Origin: an uncultured Rubrobacteraceae bacterium | GTDB taxonomy: Bacteria; Actinomycetota; Rubrobacteria; Rubrobacterales; Rubrobacteraceae | Reading direction: 5' to 3' | NCBI GenBank assembly: GCA_902806085.1 | Contig: CADCVH010000053.1 | Coordinates: 83,693 to 147,692 of the forward strand | Length of the DNA: 64,000 bases | Shown here: in pieces, positions 14,717 through 41,720 of the stretch | Layout of the letters: the number at the start of each line of letters is the position of its first letter | Position numbering within the stretch: position 1 is the first letter of the stretch | Notes under the pieces: generated by a model | Told to the model about the DNA's origin: nothing | Database searches by the model: none | The model's input: only the letters and a program-made list of their open reading frames with translations | Translations under genes and position numbers: made by a program

Positions 14717-14922
14717 AACTCCCGCATACCTCCCTAGCCCGTCGCCGATACCGGCCAGCTTACCATCGGGCCCGGTCCGGGGCCCGGCGCGAACATGTCG
14801 CACCGTCCCCGCCGCCCGCGAGACAGGCCGGCGGTAAGAAGGTATCGTCCGGCATAGGATTACCGCCCGTCTTCGGTCGGCGGGGTGGCCCTTTGGAAAA
14901 CCGGAAGCGGGGAGGAGAGAGC

Positions 14923-20106: not shown

Positions 20107-20819
20107 ATGGTCTCCTTCTCCCCCGTTTCCAGCATCCCTTCCCGGATGGCCGCCTCGATGTCCCCCGCGGTGTTCGCGAGGTGCGCCCGCATCTCACGCC
20201 GCGCCCCCTCGGCGTCTCCGGACCCCACGCGTGCGAGTATCCGTTCGTGTTCGAGGAGCGCCCGCTGCGCGTTGCCGGGCCGCGCGGCGCTGACCCGGCG
20301 GCTGGCCCGCAACAGCTCGATCACGGGCTCCAGCATCGTCAGCAGCACCCCGTTCCGCGCGGCGCGCGCCAAAAGCGCGTGAAACTCCACGTCGGCGTCC
20401 ACGTACCCTTCTGTCGACTCGATGGAGTCGCGCATCTTCTCGATCTGGACGCGCATCTCCTCGACGTCCTGGGGGCCGGCGCGGCCCGCCGCGAGCCCCG
20501 CGACCTCTACCTCCAGGATGCCGCGCATCTCCAGAAGCTCCCACAACGTCTTCGGCTGGACCCTGAGCAAGAGCCCCAAAGTGTCGCGCACGGCCCGCGG
20601 TTCCCCGCCGCTCACGACCGCGCCGCGGCCGTGCTCGATGCTGACGAGCCCCCGGGCCTCCACCAGGTTCAACGCCTCCCGAACGACGGTCCTGCTCACG
20701 CCGAGTCGCCCGCACAGCTCGCGCTCCGGCGGAAGGCGATCCCCCGCCGAAAGGCCGCCGGAGATCACCATGTCCAGGAGCTCTTCCGCCGCCCGGTCCC
20801 TGAGCCTCGTACGCTGCAT
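20103..20819 (-). CDS. FadR/GntR-family transcriptional regulator
   Basis: 238 residues from the ATG at 20819 (MQRTRLRDRAAEELL), which has GGGGTGAGAG upstream. GntR winged helix at about 5-70 (GDRLPPERELCGRLGVSRTV, then VREALNLVEARGLV), followed by an all-helical FCD ligand domain (about 90-225: DADVEFHALLARAARN, LEHERILARV, with Asp/His metal-site residues). Such proteins repress sugar-acid operons and release DNA on binding the acid. It is the first gene of the operon 20819-17232 and probably controls its own promoter. Confidence 0.88.
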   Translation of the reverse strand: MQRTRLRDRAAEELLDMVISGGLSAGDRLPPERELCGRLGVSRTVVREALNLVEARGLVSIEHGRGAVVSGGEPRAVRDTLGLLLRVQPKTLWELLEMRGILEVEVAGLAAGRAGPQDVEEMRVQIEKMRDSIESTEGYVDADVEFHALLARAARNGVLLTMLEPVIELLRASRRVSAARPGNAQRALLEHERILARVGSGDAEGARREMRAHLANTAGDIEAAIREGMLETGEKETI

Positions 20820-20842
20820 CTTGTCTCTCACCCCGGTTAACA

Positions 20843-20870
20843 TTGTTATACCAATCAGAGTGCGCGTCAA
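20843..20870 (-). promoter_or_regulatory. Promoter and likely FadR-type operator
   Basis: Minus strand: TTGACG (20870-20865), then TAACAA (20848-20843) after 16 bases, or TATAAC (20850-20845) after 14. The -10 zone contains an imperfect repeat GGTATAAC/GTTAACC (20852-20835), the kind of site FadR/GntR proteins bind. Confidence 0.45.
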
Positions 20871-20881
20871 ATAGGTTCTAG

Positions 20882-21003
20882 GTTTAAGGCTTTGAGGCAT
20901 TAGGGGTGTAGTGCGCGGGTTGGGCCCAACGTCGCAACCGGGAGTTGACAAAGAGCGGCGTGGTCTCGGGGGCGTTACCCTACAGGGCCTCAAAACCCTA
21001 AAC
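20882..21003. repeat. Inverted-repeat structure in the gap between two regulators
   Basis: A 17-base arm at 20882-20898 pairs at 15 of 17 positions with 20987-21003, enclosing 88 bases. Inside is a perfect palindrome GTTGGGCCCAAC (20919-20930). No frame inside looks coding. The region 20820-21036 is otherwise empty. Confidence 0.4.
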
Positions 21004-21036: not shown

Positions 21037-21834
21037 TTACAGCGAGGCTACTTTGAAGGCTATTTCGTTTTCGCGGAGTTCTTGTAGCTGGTCTTCGCCG
21101 ACTTTGGCGTCGACTATCACGAGGTCGAAGTCGCGGAGGTGGGCGAGGCGGTGGAGGGCCACCTTGTCGAACTTGGTGTGGTCTACGAGGAGGATGCGGC
21201 GTTTGGCGGCGGCCATCATGGCGCGTTTGCCGCGCATGATCTCCTGGTCCTGGTGCAGGGCGAAGCAGTCGGAGACGGCGGAGGTGGACATCAGGACGAC
21301 GTCGGCGCGGACGACGGAGAGGGAGGCCTCGCAGACGGCGCCGCCGAAGGCTTCGAGGGCGGGAAGGTACTCGCCGCCGAGCATGATCAGGTCTATCCCC
21401 CTCACCCCGTGTAGCTCGTTCATCACCATCACGAAGTTGGTGATGACGGTGACGGGGCTCTTCTCCGGCAACAGCCTCGCCGCCACGAGCGCCGTCGTGG
21501 ATTCGTCGAGGACCACCGAGTCGCCGGGCTGGACCTCGGCGAGCGCGGCCCTCGCGAGCGCCTCCTTCTCCGCCGTGGACGTCCTGAGCCTGTAGCGCAC
21601 GCTGCTGTCGAACCGGCTCGACGGCTGCGCGGTAACGTGCCCCCGCAGCTTCCGCAAAAGGCCCTGACGCTCCAGCTCGTCGAGGTCGCGGTGGATGGTT
21701 ATGAGGCTCACCCCGAACAGGTCCGTGAGGTCCTTGATCCCGGCCGAACCCCTCTCCAGCACGTGCTCCGCCACCCGCGCCTGACGCTCCGCCACCCGCC
21801 CGACGCTGCCCCTGCCGGACCCCTCTCCACTCAA
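21037..21834 (-). CDS. DeoR-family transcriptional repressor of the sugar operon
   Basis: 265 residues from the TTG at 21834; a GTG at 21795 would give the more usual 252, and a far upstream ATG at 21960 would overlap the divergent promoter. DeoR HTH near residues 15-70 (GSAGIKDLTDLFGVSLITIH then RDLDELERQGLLRKLRGHV), then the sugar-phosphate-binding DeoRC domain (DSVVLDESTTALVAARLLPE, VTVITNFVMV, IMLGGEY, ILLVDHTKFDKVAL). It should bind a phosphorylated sugar. It is divergent from the importer operon starting at 22163 and probably represses it. Confidence 0.85.
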   Translation of the reverse strand: MSGEGSGRGSVGRVAERQARVAEHVLERGSAGIKDLTDLFGVSLITIHRDLDELERQGLLRKLRGHVTAQPSSRFDSSVRYRLRTSTAEKEALARAALAEVQPGDSVVLDESTTALVAARLLPEKSPVTVITNFVMVMNELHGVRGIDLIMLGGEYLPALEAFGGAVCEASLSVVRADVVLMSTSAVSDCFALHQDQEIMRGKRAMMAAAKRRILLVDHTKFDKVALHRLAHLRDFDLVIVDAKVGEDQLQELRENEIAFKVASL

Positions 21835-21937
21835 CTCGAAGATCCCATACCCTCCTTCTACCGCACGCAACAAGACAGGCAAAAGCATTGTACATGCCCG
21901 CATGCCCCCGCCGCACCTTCGTCCCGCAAGAGAAAAC

Positions 21938-21983
21938 TTCATCAATATAGCTCTTGACATGAGATTATTTCATCATTTACGAT
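21938..21983 (+). promoter_or_regulatory. Promoter of the sugar operon with direct repeats
   Basis: TTGACA (21954-21959) and TACGAT (21978-21983) with an 18-base spacer. Copies of TTCATCA at 21938-21944 and 21969-21975 lie 31 bases apart, three helical turns, and flank the -35: likely DeoR-type sites. The leader to 22163 is about 170 bases, with no other gene. Confidence 0.5.
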
Positions 21984-22162
21984 AAGAATAGGGGTATGGG
22001 TTACGAGACGGGGTGAGAGGGCGTTGGTGGGAAGCGTTCGAGTGGTCGGTATGGGGTGTGTCGTGGGGTCCGGTTTTTGGTGAGGTTTTCCGGTATCTGA
22101 GGTCGGGGATCGCGGGTAGTTCGATGGGCCGCTCTACCGGGTGGCCTGGGGAAGGAGCAGGG

Positions 22163-23563
22163 ATGCGGGAAGAGGGAATGGGGTTGCGCAGGATCCGGCG
22201 CAGGGACTTTTTGAAGGGGGTCGGGGCGGGGGCCGCGGCCTTGGGCCTCGCCGGTTGCGGGGTGGACTTCGCGCAGGAGCGGTCGGGCGGGCAGGACCCG
22301 TCCAAGGTCAAGGGCGAGTTCTCGTGGACGCGGGAGAAGGGGAAGACCATCAACGTCCTCTTCGCCAAGCACCCGATGGCGGACTCGTTCATCAAGGAGT
22401 TGCCTTCCTTCGAGAAGAAGACCGGCATAAAGGTCCAGTACGACACGCTGCCGGAGGAGGAGTTCTTCCAGAAGCTCAGGACCGACCTCTCGACCGGCAA
22501 GGGCAACTACGACGCGTTCATGAACGGGCCGCCCAACAACTGGGAGTTCGCGGCACCCGGCTGGAGCGAGCCGCTCGACGCGTACATAAACAACAAGGCG
22601 CTAACCAGCGCCGACTACGACCTCGACGACTTCTACCCGGCGGCGCTCGGGGTGAACCGGTGGCGGGGCAAGCTCTGGTCGATACCCGCCAACGAGGAGG
22701 GGTACTCGCTCTTCTCGCGCAAGGACGTCCTCGAGGAGATGGGCATCGAGGCGCCGCAGACGTGGGACGACCTCATAGCCGCCGTCAAGGAGGCCGACGG
22801 GAAGACCTTCGGCGGCAAGAAGGTCGACGGGTTCGTCGCCCGCGGGGACAAGACCTTCCCGACCATCCAGTCCGGCTACAGCACGGCCTTCCTCGGGTAC
22901 GGCGCCACGGACGTCGACGATTCGGGCAAGGTCGTCATCAACTCGCCGGAGGGCGTCAAGGCCACGGAGAAGTGGGCCGAGGTGATGGGCCACGCGCCAA
23001 ACAACGTGGGTACTTTCACCTGGTACGAGGCGATGAACCACTTCTCGGCGGGGAACGCGGCGTTCTTTATCGACGCGGACCACATGTCCGAGGCCTTCGA
23101 GGACCCGACGGCGAGCGCCATCGCGGGCAAGGTCGATTACGGGTTGCCGCCCGAGGGGGACGCGGGAAGGATGGGGAACATCTGGCTGTGGTCGCTCGCG
23201 ATGTCCGCGTCTTCCAAGAACAACGTGGCGGCCTGGATGTTCCTGCAGTGGGCGACGACCAGGGAGCAGCTCGAGAAGGCAATCACCGAGGGCAACATCA
23301 ACCCGACCAGGCGCTCGCTCGCCAACTCCGAGACCATGAAGAACTACACCAAAGACTGGGGCTCCTACAACGAGACCTGGCAGACTATCCTCTCGGACCA
23401 CGCCGCCTGGAACTACATCAAGTCGCCCAAGTACCCGGCCTTCGGGGACCGGTGGGCGCTCGCGATCCAGGAGATAGCCCTCGGCGGCGGCTCCATCGAG
23501 GAGACCCTCGACGCCGCGGCGAAAGAGATGCAGGACATCTACGACTCCGCCAAGGGCTCGTAG
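22163..23563 (+). CDS. Sugar ABC transporter substrate-binding lipoprotein (Tat-type signal)
   Basis: 466 residues from the ATG at 22163, which has GGGGAAGGAGC upstream; longer readings begin in the leader. Signal RRRDFLKGVGAGAAALGLAG then Cys32 joins a twin-arginine motif to a lipobox, so it is likely exported folded and lipid-anchored. The rest is a family 1 (MalE-like, class D) binding protein: INVLFAKHPMADSF, FEKKTGIKVQYDTLPEEEFF, WSIPANEEGYSLFSRKDVLE, ATSEQ-like tail helices. It delivers an oligosaccharide, sugar or polyol to the two permeases coded next. Confidence 0.9.
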   Translation: MREEGMGLRRIRRRDFLKGVGAGAAALGLAGCGVDFAQERSGGQDPSKVKGEFSWTREKGKTINVLFAKHPMADSFIKELPSFEKKTGIKVQYDTLPEEEFFQKLRTDLSTGKGNYDAFMNGPPNNWEFAAPGWSEPLDAYINNKALTSADYDLDDFYPAALGVNRWRGKLWSIPANEEGYSLFSRKDVLEEMGIEAPQTWDDLIAAVKEADGKTFGGKKVDGFVARGDKTFPTIQSGYSTAFLGYGATDVDDSGKVVINSPEGVKATEKWAEVMGHAPNNVGTFTWYEAMNHFSAGNAAFFIDADHMSEAFEDPTASAIAGKVDYGLPPEGDAGRMGNIWLWSLAMSASSKNNVAAWMFLQWATTREQLEKAITEGNINPTRRSLANSETMKNYTKDWGSYNETWQTILSDHAAWNYIKSPKYPAFGDRWALAIQEIALGGGSIEETLDAAAKEMQDIYDSAKGS

Positions 23564-23572
23564 GCCGGGCCG

Positions 23573-24436
23573 ATGAACCAGTCGCGCCGGCTGCCGTACC
23601 TCCTGCTCCTGCCGGGCATAGTGCTGCTGCTCGCGGTGCTCTACCCGTTCCTGAGCGGGGTCTACTGGAGCTTCACGGACTTCGACCTCACGCTCGGCCA
23701 GAACCCCGCGTTCAACGGGCTGGACAACTACGTCGAGGCCTTCAGGCCGAGCGGGGAAGGCCTGCACTCGATCCTCATAACCTTCGCCTACGCGGCGCTG
23801 GCCGTGACGGCCCAGCTCCTGCTCGGGTTCGGGGTGGCGCTCCTGCTGACGAGGGAGGGGGCGCACATAAAGGTCTTCCGGGCGCTCATCGTACTGCCGC
23901 TGCTCATGCCGCCCGTGGTGGCGACCATGATGTGGCGCGTCATGATGACGCCCGACGGGGTCCTGAACTACATGCTCAGTTGGGTGTATCTGCCGCCTTT
24001 CGACTGGCTCGGGTCCACCAGCACGGCGCTGTTCTCGGTGGTGCTCATCGACACCTGGATCTACACGCCCTTCGTCATCCTGATCCTGCTCGCCGGGATG
24101 CAGTCCATCCCCACCGAGGTCCACGAGGCCGCGAGGGTCGACGGCGCGAGCTACGCCAGGGAGGTCTGGAACCTCATGGTGCCGCTCCTCAGGCCGTTCT
24201 TCGTCATCGTGATCGTCTTCCGGGGCATCGACTCGCTGAAGATGTTCGACATCATCTACACCGCGACCAGGGGCGGCCCGATCGACGCGACGATGAACCT
24301 GCACGTCCAATCGTACTTCACCGGCATCAGGGCGCTGGACATCGGCTCCTCGATGACGTTTCTGGTCGTGCTCTGGGTCCTCTGCTACGCCCTCGCGTTC
24401 TTGTTGCTCCGCGCCCGGAGGGGGAGGTTGGCCTGA
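23573..24436 (+). CDS. Sugar ABC transporter permease, MalF-like
   Basis: 287 residues, ATG 9 bases after the previous stop. Six membrane helices; the inner-face EAA loop that contacts the ATPase reads VHEAARVDGASYAREVWNL followed by MVPLLRPFF near residues 183-208. CUT1-type carbohydrate permease working with the partner at 24438. No ATPase gene is in this operon, so a shared MsiK/UgpC-type ATPase coded elsewhere must energise it. Confidence 0.92.
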   Translation: MNQSRRLPYLLLLPGIVLLLAVLYPFLSGVYWSFTDFDLTLGQNPAFNGLDNYVEAFRPSGEGLHSILITFAYAALAVTAQLLLGFGVALLLTREGAHIKVFRALIVLPLLMPPVVATMMWRVMMTPDGVLNYMLSWVYLPPFDWLGSTSTALFSVVLIDTWIYTPFVILILLAGMQSIPTEVHEAARVDGASYAREVWNLMVPLLRPFFVIVIVFRGIDSLKMFDIIYTATRGGPIDATMNLHVQSYFTGIRALDIGSSMTFLVVLWVLCYALAFLLLRARRGRLA

Positions 24437-24437
24437 A

Positions 24438-25289
24438 ATGTTAGGAAAAGGTGGAACCAGCGCCAGCCGCACGAAGCGCCGCAACGGCGTCCTGGCGAAC
24501 GCCGCGTTGCTCGCCTACACGGCGTTCGCGTTGTTCCCTTTGTTCTGGATCTTCTTGATGTCCCTGAAGGTGCAGCGGGACGTCATAGCCACGCCCCCCA
24601 AGTTTTTCTTCACCCCGACGCTTGCGAACTACGCCGAGGTCCTCTCCCGGCCGGACTTCCTGACGCCGTTCAAGAACTCCGTTATCGTCACCTTCGGGGC
24701 GTTGTTCCTGTCCGCCCTGATCGCGTTACCGGCGGCGTACGCGCTGGCGCGGATGGAGTTCCGGGGCAAGGAGGACCTGGCGTTCGCGTTCCTCTCTTTG
24801 CGGTTCGCGCCGGAGCTGATCATCCTCCTCCCCCTGTTCGTGATCTACCAGTCCTTCGGGCTCTACGACACGTACATCGGCCTGATCCTGATCTACCAGC
24901 TCATCACCTTCCCCCTGATGGTCTGGATGATGCGCTCTTTCCTGGAGGACGTGCCCAAGGAGCTGGAGGAAGCCGTCCAGATAGACGGCGGGAGCTGGTT
25001 CACCTCCTTCCGCATGATAATCACCCGCATAGCGTTGCCGGGGCTCGCGGCGAGCTGCGTGCTCTCTTTCATCTACGCCTGGAACCACTTCGTCTTCGCG
25101 CTGGTGCTCGCCTCGCAGAGGACGCAGGTCATCACGGGGGGGCTGCTCCAGTTCATCTCTTTCGAGCAGATACAGTGGGGCTCGATGGCGGCGGGCGTGA
25201 TGCTTGCCATCGTGCCCGAGTTCATCATCGCCGTGTTCGCGCTGCGGTACATGATCCGGGGCCTCACGGCCGGCACGGTGAAGGGTTAG
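24438..25289 (+). CDS. Sugar ABC transporter permease, MalG-like
   Basis: 283 residues, ATG one base after the previous stop. Six membrane helices; the EAA loop reads LEEAVQIDGGSWFTSFRMI near 175-195. It ends RGLTAGTVKG, the ending common to MalG-type permeases. Pairs with the product of 23573 to form the channel. Confidence 0.92.
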   Translation: MLGKGGTSASRTKRRNGVLANAALLAYTAFALFPLFWIFLMSLKVQRDVIATPPKFFFTPTLANYAEVLSRPDFLTPFKNSVIVTFGALFLSALIALPAAYALARMEFRGKEDLAFAFLSLRFAPELIILLPLFVIYQSFGLYDTYIGLILIYQLITFPLMVWMMRSFLEDVPKELEEAVQIDGGSWFTSFRMIITRIALPGLAASCVLSFIYAWNHFVFALVLASQRTQVITGGLLQFISFEQIQWGSMAAGVMLAIVPEFIIAVFALRYMIRGLTAGTVKG

Positions 25290-25329
25290 GGTAGGGGCTC
25301 GTCATGGACACGCGAGGGAGGAGCACGCG

Positions 25330-26373
25330 GTGATGCGAGGGGCGATCCTACCGGGCGGCGCAAGGGTGGACCTGCGGGACTTCGACGTACCGGAACCGGG
25401 ACCGGGGCAGGCGCTGGTCAGGATGAAGGCGTCCGGGCTCTGCGGCAGCGACCTGCGCGCCATCTACCACGAGCACGCCGGGTCCGACCCGAACGAGCGC
25501 TACCAGAACGTCATAGCCGGCCACGAACCGGCCGGGCAGGTGGAGTCTGTAGGACCGGGCGTGGTCGGTCTACAGCCCGGCGACCGGGTCGTCGCCTACC
25601 ACATCGTCGGCTGCGGCCGGTGCGAGGAGTGCCTCAAGGGGTTCATGATCGGCTGCCACTCCCCCGGCCGCTCGGCCTACGGCTGGCAACGCGACGGCGG
25701 ACACGCGGACTTTCTTCTCGCGGAGGCCCGCACCCTTCTGCACCTCCCGGACGGGCTGACCTACGCCGACGGCGCCCTCGTCGCCTGCGGCTTCGGCACC
25801 GCCTACCAGGGGATACTCAGGGCCGACGTCTCCGGCCGGGACCGGGTCCTGGTGGTCGGGCTCGGCCCGGTCGGGCTAGGCGCGGTGATGCTCGCGGCGT
25901 CGAGTGGGGCGGAGGTCATAGGCGTGGACCTCGTACCCGAACGCCTGGACCTCGGCAGGGAAGCCGGCGCCGCCCACGTCTCTCTCGGCGGTGAGGGCGC
26001 CGCCGAGCGCGTCATGGAGCTTACGGGCGGCCACGGCGTCGAGGTTGCGCTGGACTGTTCCGGGAGCGGGCCGGGGCGGGTCCTTTGCCTGGAGGCGGCG
26101 CGTACCTGGGGGCGGGTCGTCTTTCTCGGCGAGGGGAAGACCGTCGAGTTCGAGCCGAGCCCGCTGCTGTTGCACAAGCAGTTGACGCTCCACGGCTCCT
26201 GGGTCACGGGGCTGAACGAGATGCGCGGCCTGCTGGAGCACCTCGCCCGCGAGGGCCTGCACCCGGACAGGACCGTCAGCCACACGTTCCCCCTCTCGGA
26301 GACCAGGGAGGCCTACGAGGCCTTCGACGCCGGGAAGACGGGCAAGGTCGTGATCTCCTGGGAGAACGGGTGA
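25330..26373 (+). CDS. Zinc-dependent polyol/threonine-type dehydrogenase
   Basis: 347 residues, GTG 25330 (or ATG 25333) with GGGAGGAGC upstream. Medium-chain dehydrogenase: catalytic zinc site GLCGSDLRA and AGHEPAGQ; structural zinc Cys cluster in VGCGRCEECLKGFMIGC; Rossmann motif VGLGPVGLGAV, then GVDLVPERLDL with Asp that favours NAD. It probably oxidises a polyol or hydroxy-sugar brought in by the importer to a ketose, feeding the kinases that follow. The stop overlaps the next GTG. Confidence 0.88.
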   Translation: MMRGAILPGGARVDLRDFDVPEPGPGQALVRMKASGLCGSDLRAIYHEHAGSDPNERYQNVIAGHEPAGQVESVGPGVVGLQPGDRVVAYHIVGCGRCEECLKGFMIGCHSPGRSAYGWQRDGGHADFLLAEARTLLHLPDGLTYADGALVACGFGTAYQGILRADVSGRDRVLVVGLGPVGLGAVMLAASSGAEVIGVDLVPERLDLGREAGAAHVSLGGEGAAERVMELTGGHGVEVALDCSGSGPGRVLCLEAARTWGRVVFLGEGKTVEFEPSPLLLHKQLTLHGSWVTGLNEMRGLLEHLAREGLHPDRTVSHTFPLSETREAYEAFDAGKTGKVVISWENG

Positions 26374-27848
26374 CCCTGAACGGGGCCTTCGACTCGCCGG
26401 TGACCGTCGGGATAGACCTCGGCACCCAGAGCGTCCGCGTCGTGCTGGTGGAAGAGAGCGGGGTGGAGGTGGGCTCCGGCAGCGCCCCGCTCACGAGCGA
26501 GCGTTCGGACGAGGTGCGCCACGAGCAGGACCCCGAGTCCTGGTGGGGGGCGGTGGGGGAGGCCGCGCGGGGGGCGACGGAGGGCCTCGGCGGCAGGCCC
26601 GTGGACGGCCTCGCGATATGTTCGACCTCAGGCACGATCCTGCTGGCCGACGCGGAGGGGCGTCCGCTGACGCCCGCGATCATGTACAACGACGGGCGCG
26701 CCGCCGAAGAGGCGGAACTGGCCCAGGAGGTCGGGCGAGAGCTCTGGGGCTCGCTCGGGTACAAGATCAGCGGCTCCTACGCCCTTCCGCGGTTGATCTG
26801 GCTGCTCGGCAACGGGTACGGCGAGGGCGCCTCCAGGATGATGCACCAGGCGGACTTCGTCGCCTCGCGCCTGGCGGGAGAACCCGTCGGCACCGACTGG
26901 AGCCACGCCCTGAAGACGGGCTGGGACCTCGTAAACGAGCGCTGGCCGGAGGGGATCATGGAGGACCTCGGCATTCCGGTGGACCTGTTGCCGCCCGTCG
27001 CGCGTCCCGGCACGGATCTCGGGGAGGTCTCCGCGAAGGCGGCCGAACACACGGGGATACCGGCGGGGACCCCGATCCGGGCCGGCATGACCGACAGTTG
27101 CGCGGCCCAGATCGCGGCCGGCGCCCTCGAACCGGGCCGCTGGAATTCTGTCCTCGGCACGACGCTCGCCCTCAAGGGCGTCGCCCCGAAGCTGCTGCAC
27201 GACCCGGCGGGCGTCGTCTACTGCCACCGCCACCCGGACGGCGGCTGGCTCCCCGGCGGCGCCTCCAGCACCGGCGCCGGCGTCATCTCGGAGATGTTCC
27301 CCGACGCCGACCTCGAGGTCCTGAACGACGAGGCCGAGAAGCGGGGCCCCTCCTCGGCGATCTTCTACCCGCTGGCGGCGAAGGGCGAGCGCTTCCCCTT
27401 CTCAGCACCCGAGGCCAGGAGCTTCTGGGAGGGCGAGCCGGAGGACGAGGTGGACCGCTACCGGGCCGTGCTCGAAGGGGTGGCGTTCGTGGAGAGGTTG
27501 TGTTTCGCGCACCTGGACGGGCTCGGGGCGGACGTGTCGGGGCCGGTGAGCAGCACCGGGGGCGGGGCGAAGAGCCGCCTCTGGTCGCAGCTCCGGGCGG
27601 ACGTGCTCGGGATGACCGTGACCGTGCCGCGGTCGTCGGAGGGCTCCGTCGGCATGGCGATCCTCGCCCGCGCGGGATCCGGCCCCGTCGCCGAGACCGC
27701 GACGAGCATGAGCGGGACGAAGTGGGAGTTCGAGCCGTCCGGGCAGAACGGCAGGCTCGCCGAGAACTTCGAGCGCCTGACGGACGCCTTCGTCGGGCGG
27801 GGCTTTATCCCCGAAGACCTGGCCCGCCGCGCGAGGATAGAACGATGA
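26370..27848 (+). CDS. FGGY-family carbohydrate kinase (first of three in the operon)
   Basis: 492 residues, GTG overlapping the previous TGA (GTGA). Actin-like fold: phosphate-1 VGIDLGTQSVRVVLVEE, sugar-site DSCAAQIAAG and the second-domain loop SSTGGGAKSRLW. It transfers phosphate from ATP to a ketose or polyol. Residue choices resemble xylulokinase and related pentulose or tetrulose kinases, but the sugar cannot be set from sequence alone. Coupled by ATGA to the phosphatase gene. Confidence 0.88.
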   Translation: MTLNGAFDSPVTVGIDLGTQSVRVVLVEESGVEVGSGSAPLTSERSDEVRHEQDPESWWGAVGEAARGATEGLGGRPVDGLAICSTSGTILLADAEGRPLTPAIMYNDGRAAEEAELAQEVGRELWGSLGYKISGSYALPRLIWLLGNGYGEGASRMMHQADFVASRLAGEPVGTDWSHALKTGWDLVNERWPEGIMEDLGIPVDLLPPVARPGTDLGEVSAKAAEHTGIPAGTPIRAGMTDSCAAQIAAGALEPGRWNSVLGTTLALKGVAPKLLHDPAGVVYCHRHPDGGWLPGGASSTGAGVISEMFPDADLEVLNDEAEKRGPSSAIFYPLAAKGERFPFSAPEARSFWEGEPEDEVDRYRAVLEGVAFVERLCFAHLDGLGADVSGPVSSTGGGAKSRLWSQLRADVLGMTVTVPRSSEGSVGMAILARAGSGPVAETATSMSGTKWEFEPSGQNGRLAENFERLTDAFVGRGFIPEDLARRARIER

Positions 27849-28489
27849 CGGAGCCGGTCCGCCTCCTGCTCGCCCGCCACGGCCGGACGGAGTGGCACCG
27901 CGACAACCGCTACGTGAGCCGCACGGACATCGGCATAGACGAGACAGGCCGCGAGCAGGCCCAAACCCTCGCCCAGCGCGCGAAGGAGGAATCCCCGTCT
28001 CTCGTCCTGAGCTCTCCGCTGAAACGTGCACTTCTCACGGCCGGGCCCGCCGCGGAAGCCTGCGGCCTGCAGCCGGAGACGGACGACCGGCTGAGGGAGC
28101 TGGACTTCGGCGGCTGGGAGGGCAAGACCTTCGGCGAGATCCGCGCACAAGACCCCGAACGCGCCGAACGCTTCCTGCACTCGGCGGAGCACGGGTTCCC
28201 TGGCGGCGAACCGCTGGAGGATGGGGCGGGAAGAATCCTCGCCGTCTTCGAGGACCTGCGCCGCTCGCACGCCGGGCGGACGGTCCTCGTCGTGGCCCAC
28301 AACACGCTGCTCCGGCTCGGGCTGTGCGCGGTGCTCGGCGTCCCGCTCGGGGAGTACCGGCGGCGGCTGCCGCGCGTCGTCAACGGCGCCGTGAGCGAGG
28401 TCCGCTTTGGCGAGGGGGGAGGGGCGCTGTACAGCCTCAACGACCCCGGGCAAGCGAAACGCACGCAAAGAGAGGGGAAGGCCCAGTGA
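27845..28489 (+). CDS. Histidine phosphatase (phosphoglycerate mutase-like)
   Basis: 214 residues, ATG inside the kinase stop (ATGA). Motif LLARHGRTEWHRDNRY carries the phosphohistidine, SSPLKRALLTAG the second Arg, and LVVAHNTLLR the second His. It is a co-factor-independent acid-type phosphatase, here probably acting on sugar phosphates: either removing a toxic dead-end product or completing the pathway. Presence inside a kinase/aldolase operon is uncommon. Confidence 0.87.
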   Translation: MTEPVRLLLARHGRTEWHRDNRYVSRTDIGIDETGREQAQTLAQRAKEESPSLVLSSPLKRALLTAGPAAEACGLQPETDDRLRELDFGGWEGKTFGEIRAQDPERAERFLHSAEHGFPGGEPLEDGAGRILAVFEDLRRSHAGRTVLVVAHNTLLRLGLCAVLGVPLGEYRRRLPRVVNGAVSEVRFGEGGGALYSLNDPGQAKRTQREGKAQ

Positions 28490-29520
28490 AGATCCTGGTC
28501 GCGGGGGACCGCCACGTGTTGAGCCGGCTGATGGTGGAGGCCTTGGAGAAGGAGCTCGGGGATGGTCTTGACGTCACGACGATAGATTTCGGTTGGCCCA
28601 TGGAGCCCCACGCGGAGGTGGCCGAGGTCAAGGAGGCCGCGGGCAGCGAGGAGGAGGTCATAGAGGCCGGGCCGGGGGCCGAGGTGATCGTCACGCAGCT
28701 CGCCCCGATCACGGAGAAGGTGCTGGATTCCCTGGAAGATCTCAAGCTCGTCGTCGTGACGCGCGGTGGCCCCGTGAACGTTAACGTCGAGGCCGCCACG
28801 CGCAACGGCGTGATCGTCGCGAACGCCCCGGGGCGCAACGCGCCGGCCGCCGCGGAGTACGCCCTGGGCCTCATGCTCGCCGCCATGAAGCGCATCCCCG
28901 ACGCCCACGCCTCCCTCAAGGGCGGCGAGTGGCGCGGCGAGTTCTACGCCTACGAGGAGAACGGTGTGGAGCTCGACGGCTCGACCGTGGGGCTCATAGG
29001 CTTCGGGGCCATAGGCAGCAGGGTGGCGAAGGTCCTCGCGGCCTTCGGGGCGGAGGTGCTCGTCCACGACCCGTTCGTGGACGACGGACCCGTCCGAGAG
29101 GCCGGGGGGCGCAAGGCGGAGCTAGGGGAGTTGCTCGAACGGTCCAGGGTCGTCAGCCTGCACGCGCGCCTGGGCGACGAGACGCGGGGCATGATCGGGG
29201 CCGAACAGATAGCGAAGATGCCCGGGGGCTCCGTGCTGGTGAACACCGCCCGCGGCGGCCTCCTCGATTACGACGCCCTCTGCGACGCGCTGGAGTCCGG
29301 GCATCTCGGGGCTGCCGCGCTCGACGTATACGATGAGGAGCCCCCGCCGGAGGGGTCCCGGCTCTTCGGGGCGCCGAACCTCGTGCTATCGCCGCACATA
29401 GCCGGTGCCACGCGGGAGACGGCGCACCGGGCGGCTGGCATCGCGGCGGCGGAGGTCGGAAGGTACGCGCGGGGGGAGAGGCCGGAGAACGCCGTCAACG
29501 GGGAGGCGGTGGGCCGGTAG
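28486..29520 (+). CDS. D-isomer-specific 2-hydroxyacid dehydrogenase
   Basis: 344 residues, GTG overlapping the previous TGA (GTGA). NAD-binding domain GLIGFGAIGSRVAKVL near residue 166; catalytic Arg in NTARGGLLDY, Glu in YDEEPPPEG, His in LSPHIAGAT. It interconverts a 2-keto acid and a D-2-hydroxy acid (phosphoglycerate, glyoxylate or erythronate-type substrates are possible). The nearest sub-branch by eye is the phosphoglycerate dehydrogenase-like group without an ACT domain. Confidence 0.88.
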   Translation: MKILVAGDRHVLSRLMVEALEKELGDGLDVTTIDFGWPMEPHAEVAEVKEAAGSEEEVIEAGPGAEVIVTQLAPITEKVLDSLEDLKLVVVTRGGPVNVNVEAATRNGVIVANAPGRNAPAAAEYALGLMLAAMKRIPDAHASLKGGEWRGEFYAYEENGVELDGSTVGLIGFGAIGSRVAKVLAAFGAEVLVHDPFVDDGPVREAGGRKAELGELLERSRVVSLHARLGDETRGMIGAEQIAKMPGGSVLVNTARGGLLDYDALCDALESGHLGAAALDVYDEEPPPEGSRLFGAPNLVLSPHIAGATRETAHRAAGIAAAEVGRYARGERPENAVNGEAVGR

Positions 29521-29544
29521 GTTGGCGGCGGGGCGAGAGGGACC

Positions 29545-31017
29545 ATGAACGCCATCGGCATAGACGTCGGGACGACCGGCCTGAAGGCGGTCGCGGTGAG
29601 CTCCGGGGGGGAGATCCTGCGCGAAAAGACCGCCCGCTACCCGACCCGCCTCGCCGGGCTCGGGGCGGAGCAGGACGCCCGCGCCTGGTGGCGGGCGGCG
29701 AGGGAGGCGCTGCCCGAAGTGGCAGGCGGCGAGCCGGTCTCAGGCGTCGCCGTTACCTGCCAGGCCCCCACGCTCGTCTGCGTCGACGGGGACTTCGAGC
29801 CGCTGGGGGCGGCCCTCACCTGGATCGACCGCAGGGCCCACCGGGAGGCGGAGGAGATAGCCGGAGCCGTCGCCCCCACCCGCAACCCCCCCGACCCGTA
29901 CTTCGCCACAGGCAAGCTGCTCTGGCTCGCCCGCAACCGCCCCGAGGAATTGGAGAACGCCCGCGCCGTCCTGTGCGCCAACGGCTTTGTGATCGGGCAA
30001 CTGACCGGCGAGGCGTCCCTGGACGAGACGACAGCCGGCCTCTTCCAGGGCTGGGACGGCGCCTTCGACCCCGCGCTCCCCGGCCTCGTCCCCCTCGACT
30101 TGCTGCCGCCGGTGCGCCCGGCGATGGAGATCGCCGGCGAGGTGTCGCGTTCGGCAGCGGAGGCCACGGGCCTGCCTGAGGGCACGCCGGTCGCCCACGG
30201 CGGGATCGACGCCGTGGGGGCCGCGCTCGAGGCCGGCATCTTCGGGCCCGGCGACGGGCTCGTGGAGATGACCGGGTTCTCGACCGTGGTCATCACCGCC
30301 GCCCGGCGGGGGACGCGCGTCCCCGGCATGATCCACACGCGCCACGGCGCGGGCGGGAACGACCTCATCCTGGCCGCGATGGTCACCGCGGGCGCCGTTA
30401 CGGAATGGGGCATGAGGCTGACCGGCTTCGAGAACCCGGCCGCGTTCGACGGCAACGTCTCGAAAGAGGCCGCGGGCCGCGGGCGGCCGGGCAGGCTGCT
30501 CATGGTCCCCGCCCTCGCCGGCGAGAGGACCCCGACCTGGGACGCGACGGCCCGCGGCGCCGTGGTCGGCCTCGACCTCGACGCGGACGCGGCCGACCTC
30601 GCCGTCGCCATCTACGAGGGAACGGCCCTGGGCCTCGCGGACAACTTCGGGCGCATGCAGGAGGTCCTGGGCGACCTCAGGCCCGTGCGCTCCGTCGGCG
30701 GCGGCTCCAAGAGCGAGATCTGGACCCGGATCAAGGCCGACGTGCTCGGCGTGCCGGTCACGGTGCCGCGCCTGGGCCACGGCGCGGCGGCCGGGGCCGC
30801 CATGCTCGCCGGCATGGCGACAGGGCTCTGGCCGGACGAGGAGTCGGCCAGGGCCCTGGTGGCCGGGGAGGGCCGGGCGTTCGAGCCCGACCCGAAGATG
30901 ACCGAGAAGTACGCGAGACGCCTGGACCTCTACAGGGAACTGCAAAGTATGCTCCCCCCCATAACGCGGGGGCTGCAGGCAACCGGGGAAGAGCAAACGG
31001 CGCGATGGACCGACTAG
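29545..31017 (+). CDS. FGGY-family carbohydrate kinase (second of three)
   Basis: 490 residues, ATG. Motifs: AIGIDVGTTGLKAVAVSSGG, sugar-site HGGIDAVGAALEAG, phosphate-2 VEMTGFSTVVI and second-domain SVGGGSKSEIWTRIKADVLG. The Gly-Gly-Gly-Ser loop and the DVLGVPV stretch are xylulokinase-like. It differs clearly from the first and third kinases, so the three are not recent duplicates. The class II aldolase gene starts within its last 13 bases. Confidence 0.87.
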   Translation: MNAIGIDVGTTGLKAVAVSSGGEILREKTARYPTRLAGLGAEQDARAWWRAAREALPEVAGGEPVSGVAVTCQAPTLVCVDGDFEPLGAALTWIDRRAHREAEEIAGAVAPTRNPPDPYFATGKLLWLARNRPEELENARAVLCANGFVIGQLTGEASLDETTAGLFQGWDGAFDPALPGLVPLDLLPPVRPAMEIAGEVSRSAAEATGLPEGTPVAHGGIDAVGAALEAGIFGPGDGLVEMTGFSTVVITAARRGTRVPGMIHTRHGAGGNDLILAAMVTAGAVTEWGMRLTGFENPAAFDGNVSKEAAGRGRPGRLLMVPALAGERTPTWDATARGAVVGLDLDADAADLAVAIYEGTALGLADNFGRMQEVLGDLRPVRSVGGGSKSEIWTRIKADVLGVPVTVPRLGHGAAAGAAMLAGMATGLWPDEESARALVAGEGRAFEPDPKMTEKYARRLDLYRELQSMLPPITRGLQATGEEQTARWTD

Positions 31018-31811
31018 ACGTGGCGAAGGGGGTGCCCGTGGGCACGAATTACGGCGGGCTTTTGGAGGAGCTGGTGGGGTTGTCGAGGTCCCTCGGGGAC
31101 CCGGGGAGGGACCTCGTGATCCTGGGCGAGGGGAACACCTCCGTCCGCCTGGACGACGAAAGCTTCCTCGTAAAGGCCAGCGGCACCTCCCTCGCGAACG
31201 CGAAAAAGGAGGGCTTCGTCCGCATGGACTTCGGGCGCACGCTGGCCCTCCTCGACCTCGAAGACCCCTCCGACGACGAGCTTGGCGGCGCCCTCATGGC
31301 GGCCCGGGGCGAGGGCGGGGGGGACCTGCGGCCCTCCATCGAGGCCGTGATGCACGCGCTCTGCCTCACGGAGGGGGAGGCGACCTTTGTCGGGCACACG
31401 CACCCGACGTCGGTTAACGCCGTCCTGTGCTCCGACCGGGCGGAGATGCTCTCTGCCGGCGTGATCTTCCCTGACCAGGTCGTGGTCCTCGGCCGCCACC
31501 TCCTGCACGTGCCCTACGCCGACGTTGGCCTCCCCCTGGCCCGCGCGCTGCGCGACGGCCTGCGGGAGCACGGGGGGCGCGTCGGGGCCCCGCCGAAGAC
31601 CGTCTACCTGCAAAACCACGGCCTCGTGGCCCTGGGCCCGTCGGCCGGCGGGGTGGAGAGGGTCACCGCGATGGCGGACAAGCACGCGCGCATCATGGCC
31701 GGCGTGCTCGCCGCCGGCGAGCCGGTCTTTCTCACCGCCGAACAGGCCGACGGCCTGGACGCCCGCCCGGACGAGGAGTACCGCCGCCGGGTGCTGGGAG
31801 GGGGCAGGTGA
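31005..31811 (+). CDS. Class II aldolase/adducin-family protein (first of two)
   Basis: 268 residues from the ATG at 31005, overlapping the kinase end by 13 bases. ILGEGNTSVRLDDESFLVKA, the metal site THPTSVNAVL (two His) and LQNHGLVALG (third His) are typical of the zinc-dependent class II aldolase fold shared by FucA, RhaD, AraD and SgaE. The GEGNTS rather than SGNVS box places it with the rhamnulose-1-phosphate aldolase-type domain of fused proteins. It should split or epimerise a phosphoketose. The second family member at 33394 is quite different. Confidence 0.83.
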   Translation: MDRLDVAKGVPVGTNYGGLLEELVGLSRSLGDPGRDLVILGEGNTSVRLDDESFLVKASGTSLANAKKEGFVRMDFGRTLALLDLEDPSDDELGGALMAARGEGGGDLRPSIEAVMHALCLTEGEATFVGHTHPTSVNAVLCSDRAEMLSAGVIFPDQVVVLGRHLLHVPYADVGLPLARALRDGLREHGGRVGAPPKTVYLQNHGLVALGPSAGGVERVTAMADKHARIMAGVLAAGEPVFLTAEQADGLDARPDEEYRRRVLGGGR

Positions 31812-31897
31812 CGCGCGGGCGGTGGGCGACGACGCGGGGCGGAGGGGCGTCGGAGGACGTCCCCGGAGACGCTAAGGACTAAGGAGATGATCGGGAC

Positions 31898-33349
31898 ATG
31901 ATCCTCGGTATAGACCTGGGCACCTCGGTCGTGAAGGCCGCCGCCTTCTCGCGGGGCGGGGAGGTCCTGGCGGTCGAGGGCCGCCGGGTAAAACTGTACA
32001 ACCCGCGCCCCGAGTGCTCGGAGCAGGACATCGACGAGACGGTGGAGGCGCTCGGCGCGGTCGTCCGGGCCGCGCTGGAAGGGACGGACGAACCCGTCGA
32101 GACGGTCGGCCTCACCGGCCAGGGCGACGGCCTCTGGCTCCTGGACGAAAGGGGCCGCCAGGTGCGCCGCGCCGCGACCTGGCTCGACGCCAGGGCCAAC
32201 CCCATCGTCGAAGAGTGGAGGGCCTCAGGCGTCTTCGAGGAGCACTTCCGCCTAAACGGCAACGTCACCTTCCCGGGGGCGCCCTCCGCCATCATGGCCG
32301 CCCTCAAACGCGAAGAACCGGAGTCGCTCGAAAGGGCCGCCACGGCGGGCTACTGCAAGGACGTCGCCTTCAGGCGCCTCACCGGCGGGCGGGCCACCGA
32401 CGCCTCCGACGCCTCCGAACCGTTCATGGACCACTCGACCAGGGAGTACGACCCCGGCATCCTGAAGCTCTTCGGCCTGGAAGACCACGAGCACCTGCTC
32501 GCGCCCATCGACGCCTACCCGGGGGAGGCCCGCCCCATCAGCAGAGAAGGGGCGGAGTTGACGGGGCTTCCTGAGGGCACCCCGGTACACAGCGGCCCGT
32601 TCGACCTGCCGGCCACCGCCATGGGCGCGGGCGTCACGAGGCTCGGGGACGGCGTCATCATCGTCGGCACCACCCTCGCCTGCGAGGTCCTGACCGACCG
32701 CGTGGAGACGGACGGGGAGCCGGGAGGGCAGACGCTCTGCATGCTGGAGCCTGACCGCTGGCTCAGGGCTATGCCCGCGATGGTCGGCACCGCCTCCATG
32801 GACCTTACCCTGAACCTGCTCCGCTCCGAGCACGCGGAGATAGAGGACTTTCTCGCCGGGAGCCCGCCGGGCGCCAACGGGGTGGGCGTCCTGCCGTTCT
32901 TCTCGCCCTCCGGGGAGCGCGCCCCCTTCGTCGAGCCCGACGCCCGCGGGCAGCTCTCCGGCATGACCCTTGGCACCACCCGCGCCGACGTGGTCAGGGC
33001 CGTCGCAGAGGGGGTCGGGTACGCGGCGAAGCACTGCCTCGCGGCGGCCGGCTTGCGGGGCGAACTGTCTATCTGCGGCGGCGGGGCGGAGTCCCGCGCC
33101 TGGCGGCAGGTCCTCGCCGACGTGCTCCAGCGGCCCCTCAAGGTCGCCCGCCGTCCCGAGGTCGGCGCCAGGGGGGCGGCGATGGCCGCCATGATCTCGC
33201 TGAAGATGGACTTCGACCACGAAGCCTGGACCCGCCCGGAAGACGAGGTGCGGCCCAGCGAGGACCTGGCCGACCTCTACGAGGAGGGCTTCGATCACTA
33301 CCTGGCCAGGGTCGATTCCGCCCGCGATCTCTGGGGCCGTCCTACGTGA
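31898..33349 (+). CDS. FGGY-family carbohydrate kinase (third of three)
   Basis: 483 residues, ATG after AAGGAGATGA. ILGIDLGTSVVKAAAFSRGG, VGLTGQGDGLWLLDERG, sugar-site SGPFDLPATAMGAG and SICGGGAESRAW. The GQGDGLW segment resembles carbohydrate kinases of the L-xylulose/erythritol group (LyxK/EryA-like). The substrate is not fixed by sequence. Coupled by GTGA or a short gap to the aldolase that follows. Confidence 0.87.
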   Translation: MILGIDLGTSVVKAAAFSRGGEVLAVEGRRVKLYNPRPECSEQDIDETVEALGAVVRAALEGTDEPVETVGLTGQGDGLWLLDERGRQVRRAATWLDARANPIVEEWRASGVFEEHFRLNGNVTFPGAPSAIMAALKREEPESLERAATAGYCKDVAFRRLTGGRATDASDASEPFMDHSTREYDPGILKLFGLEDHEHLLAPIDAYPGEARPISREGAELTGLPEGTPVHSGPFDLPATAMGAGVTRLGDGVIIVGTTLACEVLTDRVETDGEPGGQTLCMLEPDRWLRAMPAMVGTASMDLTLNLLRSEHAEIEDFLAGSPPGANGVGVLPFFSPSGERAPFVEPDARGQLSGMTLGTTRADVVRAVAEGVGYAAKHCLAAAGLRGELSICGGGAESRAWRQVLADVLQRPLKVARRPEVGARGAAMAAMISLKMDFDHEAWTRPEDEVRPSEDLADLYEEGFDHYLARVDSARDLWGRPT

Positions 33350-33393
33350 CGGAAGGGCCAAACGCAAACACGACGCGAAAGAGGAGGACCGGC

Positions 33394-34065
33394 TTGAAGC
33401 ACCAGAGGCTACGCGAAGAGGTCACCGAAGTCTCGCGCCGGATGAGCGCCTCCGGCCTCGTCCGCACGACCTCGGGCAACGTCAGCGCCCGCACCCCCGA
33501 CGGGAACGTCCTCATAACCCCGAGCGGGCTGCCCTACGAGGACCTCGAACCGCAGGACGTGGCGCTCGTGAACCTCGAGGGCGCGTTGCTAGAAGGCTGC
33601 TTCGATCCATCCACCGAGGTCCCGATGCACACGGGCATCTACCGCTCCAAGCCGGACGTTGGCGGGATCGTGCACACCCACGCGCCCTACTCGACCGCGC
33701 TCGCCTGCCTGGGCCTGGAGATCCCCGCGGTCCACTACATGCTCGCGGTCCTCTCCGAAGAGGGCCGCGTTCCCCTGTCCCCCTACGCGACCTACGGCAC
33801 CGAGGAGCTGGCCGGGTACGCGGCCGAGACCCTCGGCGACGCCCACTCCGCCTGCCTGCTCCAGAACCACGGGACCATCACCGTGGGGGAGACAGCCGGA
33901 AAGGCCTACTCGCTGACCGTGATCCTGGAGGAGATGGCCGAGCTCTACTACAGGACCATGACGGCCGGAGACCCCATCATCCTGGGCCCCGACCGCATAG
34001 CCGAGACCCGCGCCAAGATAGCCGGTTACGGGCAGACCAAGCCGGCGGCCAAAAAACCGGCGTAG
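33394..34065 (+). CDS. Class II aldolase, L-fuculose-phosphate aldolase-like (second of two)
   Basis: 223 residues from TTG 33394, preferred because GAGGAGG lies 6 bases upstream; a GTG at 33346 that overlaps the kinase stop would add 16 polar residues. RTTSGNVSARTPDGNVLITP and PSGLPYEDL, catalytic Glu in STEVPMHTGIY, metal His in VHTHAPYS and LQNHGTITVG. This is the FucA/AraD branch (about 215-230 residues is normal). It would release DHAP or glycolaldehyde phosphate from a ketose phosphate. Last gene of the operon. Confidence 0.88.
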   Translation: MKHQRLREEVTEVSRRMSASGLVRTTSGNVSARTPDGNVLITPSGLPYEDLEPQDVALVNLEGALLEGCFDPSTEVPMHTGIYRSKPDVGGIVHTHAPYSTALACLGLEIPAVHYMLAVLSEEGRVPLSPYATYGTEELAGYAAETLGDAHSACLLQNHGTITVGETAGKAYSLTVILEEMAELYYRTMTAGDPIILGPDRIAETRAKIAGYGQTKPAAKKPA

Positions 34066-34368: not shown

Positions 34369-35154
34369 TTGTCAGACAAACGCGCAGATTTACCGGGTCA
34401 GCGGCAGCGGCGGATAGCGGAGCTCGTTCGCGAGTCGGGGAGCGTCACCGTGGCGACGTTGGAGGAGGACCTCGGCATCTCTCCGGCGACCGCGCGGCGG
34501 GACCTGGCGGTGCTCGAGAGGCAGGGCAAGGTAAAGAGGACCCATGGCGGGGCCGTCATGCCTGGGTTCACGCAGCACGAGGACTCCTTCCAGCAGCGGC
34601 TGGGGGAGGCGTTGGAGGCGAAGGGGCGGCTGGCGCGGGTCGCGGCTGCGATGCTCGAGGCGGACGAGACGGTGTTCGTGGATTCGTCCACCACGGCTTA
34701 CTACGCGGCGCGGCGCATAATCGCCGACGCGCCGAGCGTGACGTGCCTGACCAACCTGGTACCGGTCATGGACCTGTTCTCCGGGGCGGATCCGTCCGGC
34801 GCGAGCATGGTCGGGGTCGGCGGCATGTTCAGGGCGCTGACGCTCTCCTTCGTGGGGCCGTGCGCCGTGCGTGCCGTCGAGTCTTACCTGGTGGACAGGG
34901 CGTTCGTGAGCGTCAAGGGGATCACGGCCGGGGGGCACCTCACGGACGCGGACCCGCTGGAGGCGGAGGTCAAGCGCGCCATGATCCGGCAGTCCGACAA
35001 GCCCGTGCTGCTGGTGGACGGCAGGAAGTTCGAGCGCCGGGGCATGAGCGTCATAGGCCACGTCTCCGAGGTCTCCCTGGTGGTAACCGCCGACGCCCGC
35101 CCCCCGCACGTGCAGGCCCTGGAGGACCTGGGGGTGGCCGTGAAGAGCGTGTAA
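34369..35154 (+). CDS. DeoR-family transcriptional repressor of the rhamnose cluster
   Basis: 261 residues, TTG start. HTH at about 10-60 (RQRRIAELVRESGSVTVATL, EDLGISPATARRDLAVLERQ, VKRTHGGAV), then DeoRC (ETVFVDSSTTAYYAARRI, SVTCLTNLVPVMD, PVLLVDGRKFERRGMSVIGH). It likely senses a rhamnose-derived phosphate such as rhamnulose-1-phosphate and controls the genes from 35656 to 46198, all on the same strand downstream. Confidence 0.85.
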   Translation: MSDKRADLPGQRQRRIAELVRESGSVTVATLEEDLGISPATARRDLAVLERQGKVKRTHGGAVMPGFTQHEDSFQQRLGEALEAKGRLARVAAAMLEADETVFVDSSTTAYYAARRIIADAPSVTCLTNLVPVMDLFSGADPSGASMVGVGGMFRALTLSFVGPCAVRAVESYLVDRAFVSVKGITAGGHLTDADPLEAEVKRAMIRQSDKPVLLVDGRKFERRGMSVIGHVSEVSLVVTADARPPHVQALEDLGVAVKSV

Positions 35155-35240
35155 GAGGAGCGGGCAGGGCCGGCTGGGGAGCCGGTTCGTGGGAAAGGGA
35201 AATCGCGAGGGTTTATGCCCGGGAGGAGTTTATCTGAGCC

Positions 35241-35436
35241 ATGGCTACTTCGGAGGCGGACGTGAACAGCCGGCACGACGACGGCCACGTCAGCGCTCAG
35301 CAATGGAGATGGACCGCCCTGGCGGGCATGGCGTCCTACATGGACGCCGGGTCTATCGGTTCGGGTACCCCGGATGGACACCACCCAGCCCGCGCTCTCG
35401 CTTATGACCGCCATGGCCTGCCCGGTGGAGCGATGA
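35241..35436 (+). pseudogene. Remnant of an MFS sugar transporter gene
   Basis: ATG at 35241 with GGGAGGAG upstream opens a frame whose residues 25-41 (QQWRWTALAGMASYMDAGS) match the start of MFS sugar transporters. After about 35360 the MFS-like text jumps frame (ATG 35373: MDTTQPALSLMTAMACPVER, then TGA 35434-35436), and the other eleven helices are missing. The frame left open to 35651 codes basic, unstructured sequence. The stretch 35437-35655 holds no gene. So this is a truncated, frame-shifted remnant. Confidence 0.6.
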
Positions 35437-35655
35437 GCGCGATGCCCGACGTATCGGCCGTGAAGCTCGGAGGCCGGCAACGGCCGTGCCCGCGCAGAAG
35501 ATTTCGGCGGACGGCGAGGCACGCCACGAGGCGTGCGCCGGTTCTCATGGATGGGTGGATCCACGCTTCGCGGGCAGCGAGACGGCGCCGCCTCAGCACC
35601 CCGGTCGGCCAGGCGGGGGTCTTCGAGACCCCAGGGTTCAGGGAAGGGTAACGGT

Positions 35656-38051: not shown

Positions 38052-38121
38052 GCATGTGTGAGAGGAGGGATGGAGAGCCGGGTGGTGACCATCCGGAGGG
38101 CGTCAGAGAGGTAGGAGCGTC

Positions 38122-41655: not shown

Positions 41656-41720
41656 CCCGTACCCGAGAGAGAAAACCGCCGGTAGAAGAGAGCAAAGCTT
41701 ACCGAGAAGGAGGAGAGAGC

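Follow-up and report, generated by a model that had tools for sequence, protein, structure and literature searches.

The DNA considered here (hereafter the window) is a stretch of 64,000 nucleotides from an uncultured Rubrobacteraceae bacterium of soil, whose genome is a Rubrobacter metagenome bin of 4.41 Mb in 133 contigs, with 4.55% contamination. Its positions 22163-34065 carry, on the plus strand, a sugar operon encoding the solute-binding protein (SBP) and two permeases of an importer, a zinc dehydrogenase (ADH), three FGGY kinases, a histidine phosphatase (HisP), a 2-hydroxyacid dehydrogenase (HADH) and two class II aldolases. This gene set was listed in an earlier note on the same DNA and is established, all of its members being present by Pfam. 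The operon and its control region are as follows, with the basis of each assignment in brackets.

21037..21960, minus strand: divergent DeoR-family regulator, DeoR1 (DeoR/AgaR-type models)
21927..21983, plus strand: operon promoter TTGACA-N18-TACGAT with operator-like repeats, the promoter itself at 21954-21983
22163..23563, plus strand: SBP of the CUT1 type with a twin-arginine signal (PF01547, TAT signal)
23573..24436, plus strand: ABC permease 1 (PF00528, BPD_transp_1)
24438..25289, plus strand: ABC permease 2 (PF00528, BPD_transp_1)
25330..26373, plus strand: zinc MDR dehydrogenase ADH, accessory (PF00107/PF08240)
26370..27848, plus strand: FGGY kinase 1 (FGGY1), SePSK/AtXK-1-like (Pfam, solved relatives, tree)
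27845..28489, plus strand: histidine phosphatase HisP (PF00300, His_Phos_1; relatives of phosphatase type)
28486..29520, plus strand: NAD 2-hydroxyacid dehydrogenase HADH, like phosphoglycerate dehydrogenase (PGDH) (2-Hacid_dh; catalytic residues)
29545..31017, plus strand: FGGY kinase 2 (FGGY2), isolated branch (Pfam, tree)
31005..31811, plus strand: class II aldolase A (AldA), RhaD-domain type (PF00596, tree, weak fold model)
31898..33349, plus strand: FGGY kinase 3 (FGGY3), erythritol kinase/L-xylulose kinase clade (Pfam, tree)
33346..34065, plus strand: class II aldolase B (AldB), FucA/ribulose-1-phosphate aldolase type (Pfam, models, tree)

The coupling of these genes by ATGA or GTGA, also reported earlier, is seen at four junctions with 4-base overlaps (GTGA at ADH/FGGY1, HisP/HADH and FGGY3/AldB, ATGA at FGGY1/HisP), to which FGGY2/AldA adds an overlap of 13 bases. 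The remaining intergenic gaps within the operon measure 1-86 bases, and 303 bases separate AldB from the next gene. Pairwise identity is 28.2-30.5% among the kinases and 25.7% between AldA and AldB; neither the three kinases nor the two aldolases are therefore duplicates, in agreement with the earlier note. Since 14 FGGY kinases are encoded genome-wide, a multi-kinase locus is less odd here than it would be elsewhere.

Two operator-like direct repeats of 18 bases (CAAGAGAAAACTTCATCA and CATGAGATTATTTCATCA) are found at the promoter, whose core is identical in the related genome G006, similar in G029 and G015, and unique within its own genome. The longest open reading frame of DeoR1 overlaps this promoter, so that the true start of the regulator probably lies further in. 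Orthologues of DeoR1 adjoin the module in Rubrobacteraceae, Streptomyces, G153 and G192. Upstream regions from the window and from Streptomyces had no convincing operator words in common, and a search for riboswitches gave no Rfam match anywhere in the window. An S-box connection, suggested by the FGGY and PGDH-like pair of B. subtilis yoaDCB, was considered and set aside.

Of the relatives searched, five further Rubrobacteraceae genomes (G001, G006, G008, G015 and G029) have the operon in whole or in part, each with an AldA orthologue; a contig scan with a single AldA sequence matched three Rubrobacteraceae and nothing beyond, and an alignment query might reach further. In G006, a genome of two contigs, all genes except ADH are found in the same order (locus L030). 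G029 likewise lacks ADH and has FGGY1-HisP-importer-HADH-FGGY2-AldA-FGGY3, where the importer has diverged and comprises two ATPases (L129). In G015 the genes are split between two contigs, the first with DeoR1, FGGY1, HisP and HADH, the second with FGGY2, AldA and FGGY3. For G001 and G008, fragmentary contigs cover the 3' part of the operon only. The order FGGY1-HisP-(importer)-HADH-FGGY2-AldA-FGGY3 is thus retained in other genera of the family. Together with ratios of non-synonymous to synonymous substitution rates (dN/dS) of 0.06-0.25 between the window and G006 (ten genes compared), this gene order indicates that the operon is real and under selection. That the genes were brought together by chance or are decaying, or that their arrangement is an artefact of binning and assembly, could be suspected from the 133 contigs and 4.55% contamination of the bin, but is contradicted by the same order in the two-contig G006, by the dN/dS values and by the conserved promoter, and is extremely improbable. 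Because G006 and G029 lack ADH in their orthologous operons, this gene is an accessory one.

Beyond the family, the operon is a composite of two modules that are also found apart in other phyla. The first consists of FGGY3 and HADH, with or without AldB, and the second of FGGY1 and a phosphatase, with or without AldA. FGGY3 and HADH are accompanied by an aldolase of the AldB type in Shinella, Sinorhizobium, Paracoccus, Pseudosulfitobacter, Streptomyces NBC_00053 and the archaeon Halomarina. Streptomyces KN37, BHT-5-2 and Nonomuraea have a core of FGGY3-FGGY1-HisP-HADH without an aldolase, and in NBC_01727 and G153 the same genes are spread over both strands. A survey of 396 genomes of the phylum yielded seven strong HADH matches, every one of them adjoining kinases of the FGGY3/FGGY1 type. 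FGGY1 is accompanied by an AldA-type aldolase and HisP in G294 and G241, and in rhizobia a HAD-IIA phosphatase replaces HisP in this module. Both modules are present in Sinorhizobium, together with an importer of the same type and a relative of DeoR1, but HisP and FGGY2 are missing. Where FGGY1 homologues lie apart from HisP and HADH (G120, G127, G130, G188, G299 and others), their surroundings offered no clear hint of the metabolism involved.

The search of other genomes proposed earlier thus returned clusters in Rubrobacteraceae, Streptomyces, Sinorhizobium and others; these share the same genes, and none of those found has a known substrate, so that orthologous clusters of the kind that would have refuted the earlier proposal did not turn up. 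The earlier note also knew of no described pathway using this set. None was found in a literature search, which is weak evidence as most subscription papers lay outside its scope. The set remains without a described match; since its two modules, fused here, also recur on their own, it is nonetheless less singular than was first thought.

The separate existence of the two modules also suits a division of labour in which one importer and one regulator serve two unrelated sugars, FGGY3-HADH-AldB degrading one and FGGY1-phosphatase-AldA, possibly with FGGY2, another. Rhamnose genes surround or adjoin the FGGY1-AldA pair in Aminobacter, G137, G294 and the window, and the second sugar might come from plant walls along with L-rhamnose, D-apiose being an example; apiose and rhamnose co-occur in rhamnogalacturonan II. 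However, the operon has no candidate for an apiose isomerase or reductase, and in Rubrobacteraceae, Sinorhizobium and G153 a single DeoR and a single importer stand over the genes of both modules. Their sharing in such distant lineages favours a linked function, and two unrelated sugars appear doubtful, if by no means negligible.

Some neighbouring gene groups in these lineages are of interest in their own right. The loci L131-L134, on Aminobacter and Shinella plasmids, contain an AldA-type aldolase, an FGGY1-type kinase and a HAD phosphatase of the TIGR01459 type, those of Aminobacter inside a rhamnose operon. On a Pseudosulfitobacter plasmid (L086, 7977-11235), the HADH-aldolase-FGGY row is found with an acetolactate-synthase-like enzyme, a molybdopterin oxidoreductase and CoA transferases. 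The gene beside this triad was considered as a glyoxylate carboligase, an assignment dropped because the model it matches best is that of the acetolactate synthase large subunit, PRK07586.

In trees that included E. coli kinases and erythritol kinases, FGGY3 groups with EryA and LyxK, although it is not nested with EryA itself. FGGY1 forms a clade of its own, and FGGY2 is a long isolated branch whose close relatives were found only in Rubrobacteraceae. The best solved relatives of FGGY1 are SePSK and AtXK-1, the former of which has D-ribulose kinase activity (PMC4880283). The motifs GIDLGTQ, STSGT and MTDSC of FGGY1 match, by positions assigned by eye, the catalytic residues Asp8, Thr11 and Asp221 of SePSK and its ribulose contacts Ser72 and Ser222 (PMC4880283). 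All three kinases stay far under the cut-off of the pentulose kinase model TIGR01315 (64.9 for FGGY1, 75.2 and 43.5 bits vs 408.7). Outside Actinobacteria, the nearest relative of FGGY3 to be found (55%) is on a plasmid of Shinella WSC3-e (L066), beside a lipoyl synthase gene and opposite genes for GlpD, a class II FBP-type aldolase and oxo-acid dehydrogenase subunits; these genes belong to a different pathway.

Both aldolases are members of the class II superfamily (PF00596, 74.6 bits for AldA and 187.3 for AldB vs a cut-off of 22.2), with the motifs HTH, NHG and PSIE/PSTE, that is, with the zinc His motif and the catalytic Glu; the HxH...H zinc motif and the Glu are retained in AldB. In the aldolase tree, AldA falls with RhaD-type domains and AldB with FucA and haloarchaeal aldolases. 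The closest solved structure to AldB is the Bacillus thuringiensis aldolase 6btd, followed by FucA, and its best model, ribulose-1-phosphate aldolase NF053831, reaches 190 bits, under the cut-off of 300. AldB likewise stays below the FucA cut-off (TIGR01086, 138/400 bits), and AldA below that of RhaD (TIGR02632, 40/568 bits). A fold model of AldA, usable at the superfamily level only (mean predicted local distance difference test score, pLDDT, of 53.6), has class II aldolases as its best matches.

The transport genes bear on the substrate class. The solved chain closest to the SBP is 4rya, a sorbitol SBP. No importer ATPase gene lies in the operon; homologous ATPases are encoded elsewhere in the same genome, and two lie inside the cluster in other lineages. 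Related loci carry polyol-type transporters: major facilitator superfamily (MFS) proteins of the RbtT/DalT/CsbX family are encoded beside FGGY3/HADH in Streptomyces KN37, G192 and NBC_00053 (562, 544 and 481 bits, respectively; cut-off 375), and a relative lies directly upstream of FGGY3 in BHT-5-2. The same genome additionally has a second multi-kinase polyol locus (L139, contig C97:1-18000 of G000), with an AldB paralogue (62% identical), a zinc dehydrogenase, three FGGY kinases, a HAD-IIA phosphatase, RpiB, an RbtT/DalT transporter and a glycerol-1-phosphate-dehydrogenase-like protein. The MFS family is not strictly one of C5 substrates, as one plasmid relative lies beside DhaK/DhaL and RpiB genes, a layout familiar from tetritol pathways. 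The SBP, the MFS genes of Streptomyces and G192 and the C97 locus point to small polyols or ketuloses. A C4-C5 polyol is hence the best-supported substrate class, which lends partial support to the earlier interpretation; the tetritol itself, the branched sugar and the several sugars proposed there stay conjectural. The 'polyol' dehydrogenase of the earlier note is indeed a zinc MDR dehydrogenase, but that label is unproved by its own sequence; its best NCBIfam models, threonine and inosose dehydrogenase, match far under cut-off.

From these observations we infer the substrate, the sites of phosphorylation and the roles of HADH, the phosphatase and FGGY2. Our tentative reading, to which we give a little less than even weight, is a phosphorylative route for a C4-C5 polyol or ketulose that ends in dihydroxyacetone phosphate (DHAP) and is controlled through DeoR1 from one promoter. 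The ABC importer would take up the polyol or ketulose, which FGGY3, as a member of the erythritol/L-xylulose kinase clade, would phosphorylate. HADH would then convert the polyol phosphate to a ketose 1-phosphate, in place of the GlpD-like EryB of erythritol pathways, and AldB would cleave this product into DHAP and a short aldehyde. The ribulokinase-like FGGY1, the phosphatase and AldA, with FGGY2, might process a related ketose or, alternatively, remove or shift the phosphate on misplaced intermediates. Where present, ADH may oxidize the polyol to that related ketose.

HADH is nearest to PGDH and glyoxylate reductase, and its catalytic residues R256, E285 and H304 are invariant in the ten sequences aligned (10/10). 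Oxidation of the carbon next to a phosphomethyl group is suggested because PGDH, its nearest family, does so with phosphoglycerate. It is a speculative and rather improbable extension that HADH acts as an alditol-phosphate dehydrogenase in a new kinase-HADH-FucA-type aldolase polyol pathway of Actinobacteria, Alphaproteobacteria and haloarchaea, to which a second kinase-phosphatase-aldolase module is attached. The chief mechanistic rival is a sugar-acid route, in which an imported aldonate or keto-aldonate would be interconverted by HADH between its C2 hydroxyl and keto forms, phosphorylated by FGGY3 and decarboxylated or cleaved to DHAP by AldB; in a variant, HADH would reduce glyoxylate or hydroxypyruvate released by an aldolase. 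Parallels are the 2,3-diketo-gulonate reductase and LyxK of E. coli and the tetronate pathways. The retained Arg-Glu-His of 2-hydroxyacid dehydrogenases fits this route, as do the nearest families of HADH, the clade that FGGY3 shares with LyxK, whose E. coli gene is near YiaK, and a match of AldB to the 3-oxo-tetronate-4-phosphate decarboxylase (OtnC) model NF043034 at 116 bits. However, the cut-off of this model is 250 bits and AldB scores higher with the fuculose- and ribulose-1-phosphate aldolase models; the DUF1537 kinase and 2-oxo-tetronate isomerase of the tetronate (otn/ltn) pathway are absent from the operon, and related loci carry transporters of the polyol type. A sugar acid as the substrate is unlikely.

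Several points weigh against the polyol/ketulose route. Its main weakness is that the catalytic Arg of 2-hydroxyacid dehydrogenases, which normally binds a carboxylate, is kept in HADH, so that a sugar acid fits better here; to our knowledge, polyol-phosphate activity is known for no 2-hydroxyacid dehydrogenase of this family. The ligand class of the SBP is judged from a distant relative, and the link to polyols holds by analogy between loci, the RbtT/DalT transporter not being encoded in the window, which has the ABC importer instead. No kinase of the operon, nor HisP, HADH, AldA, AldB or ADH, passes an NCBIfam cut-off. The scheme could strictly do with fewer than three kinases, and the Streptomyces core, mostly without an adjoining aldolase, suggests that the aldolases may be non-essential to the core step.

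As in the erythritol pathway (EryA-EryB-EryC, TpiB/RpiB), a polyol would be phosphorylated first, here by a kinase of the EryA/LyxK clade that is not nested with EryA itself; however, the GlpD-like EryB, EryC, RpiB and TpiB are missing, and in their stead the operon has a class II aldolase and a dehydrogenase resembling PGDH. The ribitol/D-arabitol (Rbt/Dal) systems resemble related loci in their RbtT/DalT/CsbX transporter and FGGY kinase, and the window in its zinc dehydrogenase, whereas the kinases of the operon are far under the pentulose kinase model and its two aldolases, HADH and phosphatase fit nowhere in the classical route. With the L-rhamnose and L-fucose pathways it shares an FGGY kinase and a class II aldolase yielding DHAP (AldA being RhaD-domain-like and AldB FucA-like), but it has no aldose isomerase or lactaldehyde enzyme, RhaI belonging to the rhamnose operon downstream. 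Similar in content are the Sinorhizobium, Shinella, Streptomyces and Halomarina clusters, with FGGY3, HADH, often AldB and, in several, a CUT1 importer and DeoR1, as well as FGGY1 and an AldA-type aldolase in Sinorhizobium; these differ in lacking FGGY2, and Sinorhizobium adds GlpD, TPI and an isomerase.

The haloarchaeal non-carboxylating pentose bisphosphate pathway likewise combines a phosphatase with a FucA-type aldolase making DHAP, and its ribulose bisphosphate phosphatase and ribulose-1-phosphate aldolase (PMC9700705) are a precedent for a phosphate swap, whereby a ketose 5-phosphate would be phosphorylated at C1, dephosphorylated at C5 and cleaved as a ketose 1-phosphate. Kinase, phosphatase and class II aldolase do stay together despite a differing phosphatase family (HisP in Actinobacteria, HAD in rhizobia and on contig C97). 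Nevertheless, the ribose-1-phosphate kinase, ribose-1,5-bisphosphate isomerase and HAD ribulose bisphosphate phosphatase of that pathway are absent from the operon, and an FGGY kinase accepting a sugar phosphate would have to be presumed; such a swap is quite improbable.

Downstream of the operon, at 34369-46198 on the plus strand, lies a complete and separate L-rhamnose operon, which also follows the studied operon in G006. It encodes a DeoR, an epimerase-like protein, rhamnulokinase, an RbsA-type importer, RhaI (569 bits, above cut-off) and a bifunctional RhaD aldolase/dehydrogenase, and the fourth FGGY gene of the window (36540-38051) is part of it. On the other side (17232-20993, minus strand), a divergent group encodes an SDR, a galactonate-dehydratase-like enzyme of the enolase type, a Peptidase_U32-like protein (311 aa, without an NCBIfam match) and a GntR, and occupies the same place in G006. 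These genes were considered as part of the operon and set aside, as they were seen to adjoin it only in Rubrobacter (L030). An HpcH/HpaI-type aldolase encoded near this group (14893-15693, plus strand) could complete a separate sugar-acid route. Further away, an open frame of 559 aa at 54666-56345, plus strand, has a coding-like base composition and no Pfam match.

Returning to the polyol/ketulose route, the operon is best filed as a variant of known sugar pathways of phosphorylation and aldol cleavage, its enzymes belonging to families already known. Distant lineages share the FGGY3-HADH-aldolase triad and the FGGY1-phosphatase-aldolase trio, yet the set is undescribed in the literature found. 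Once the function of one member is established, genes could be named in many soil bacteria and in some haloarchaea, and the 2-hydroxyacid dehydrogenase fold might prove to have a new role in the metabolism of sugars.

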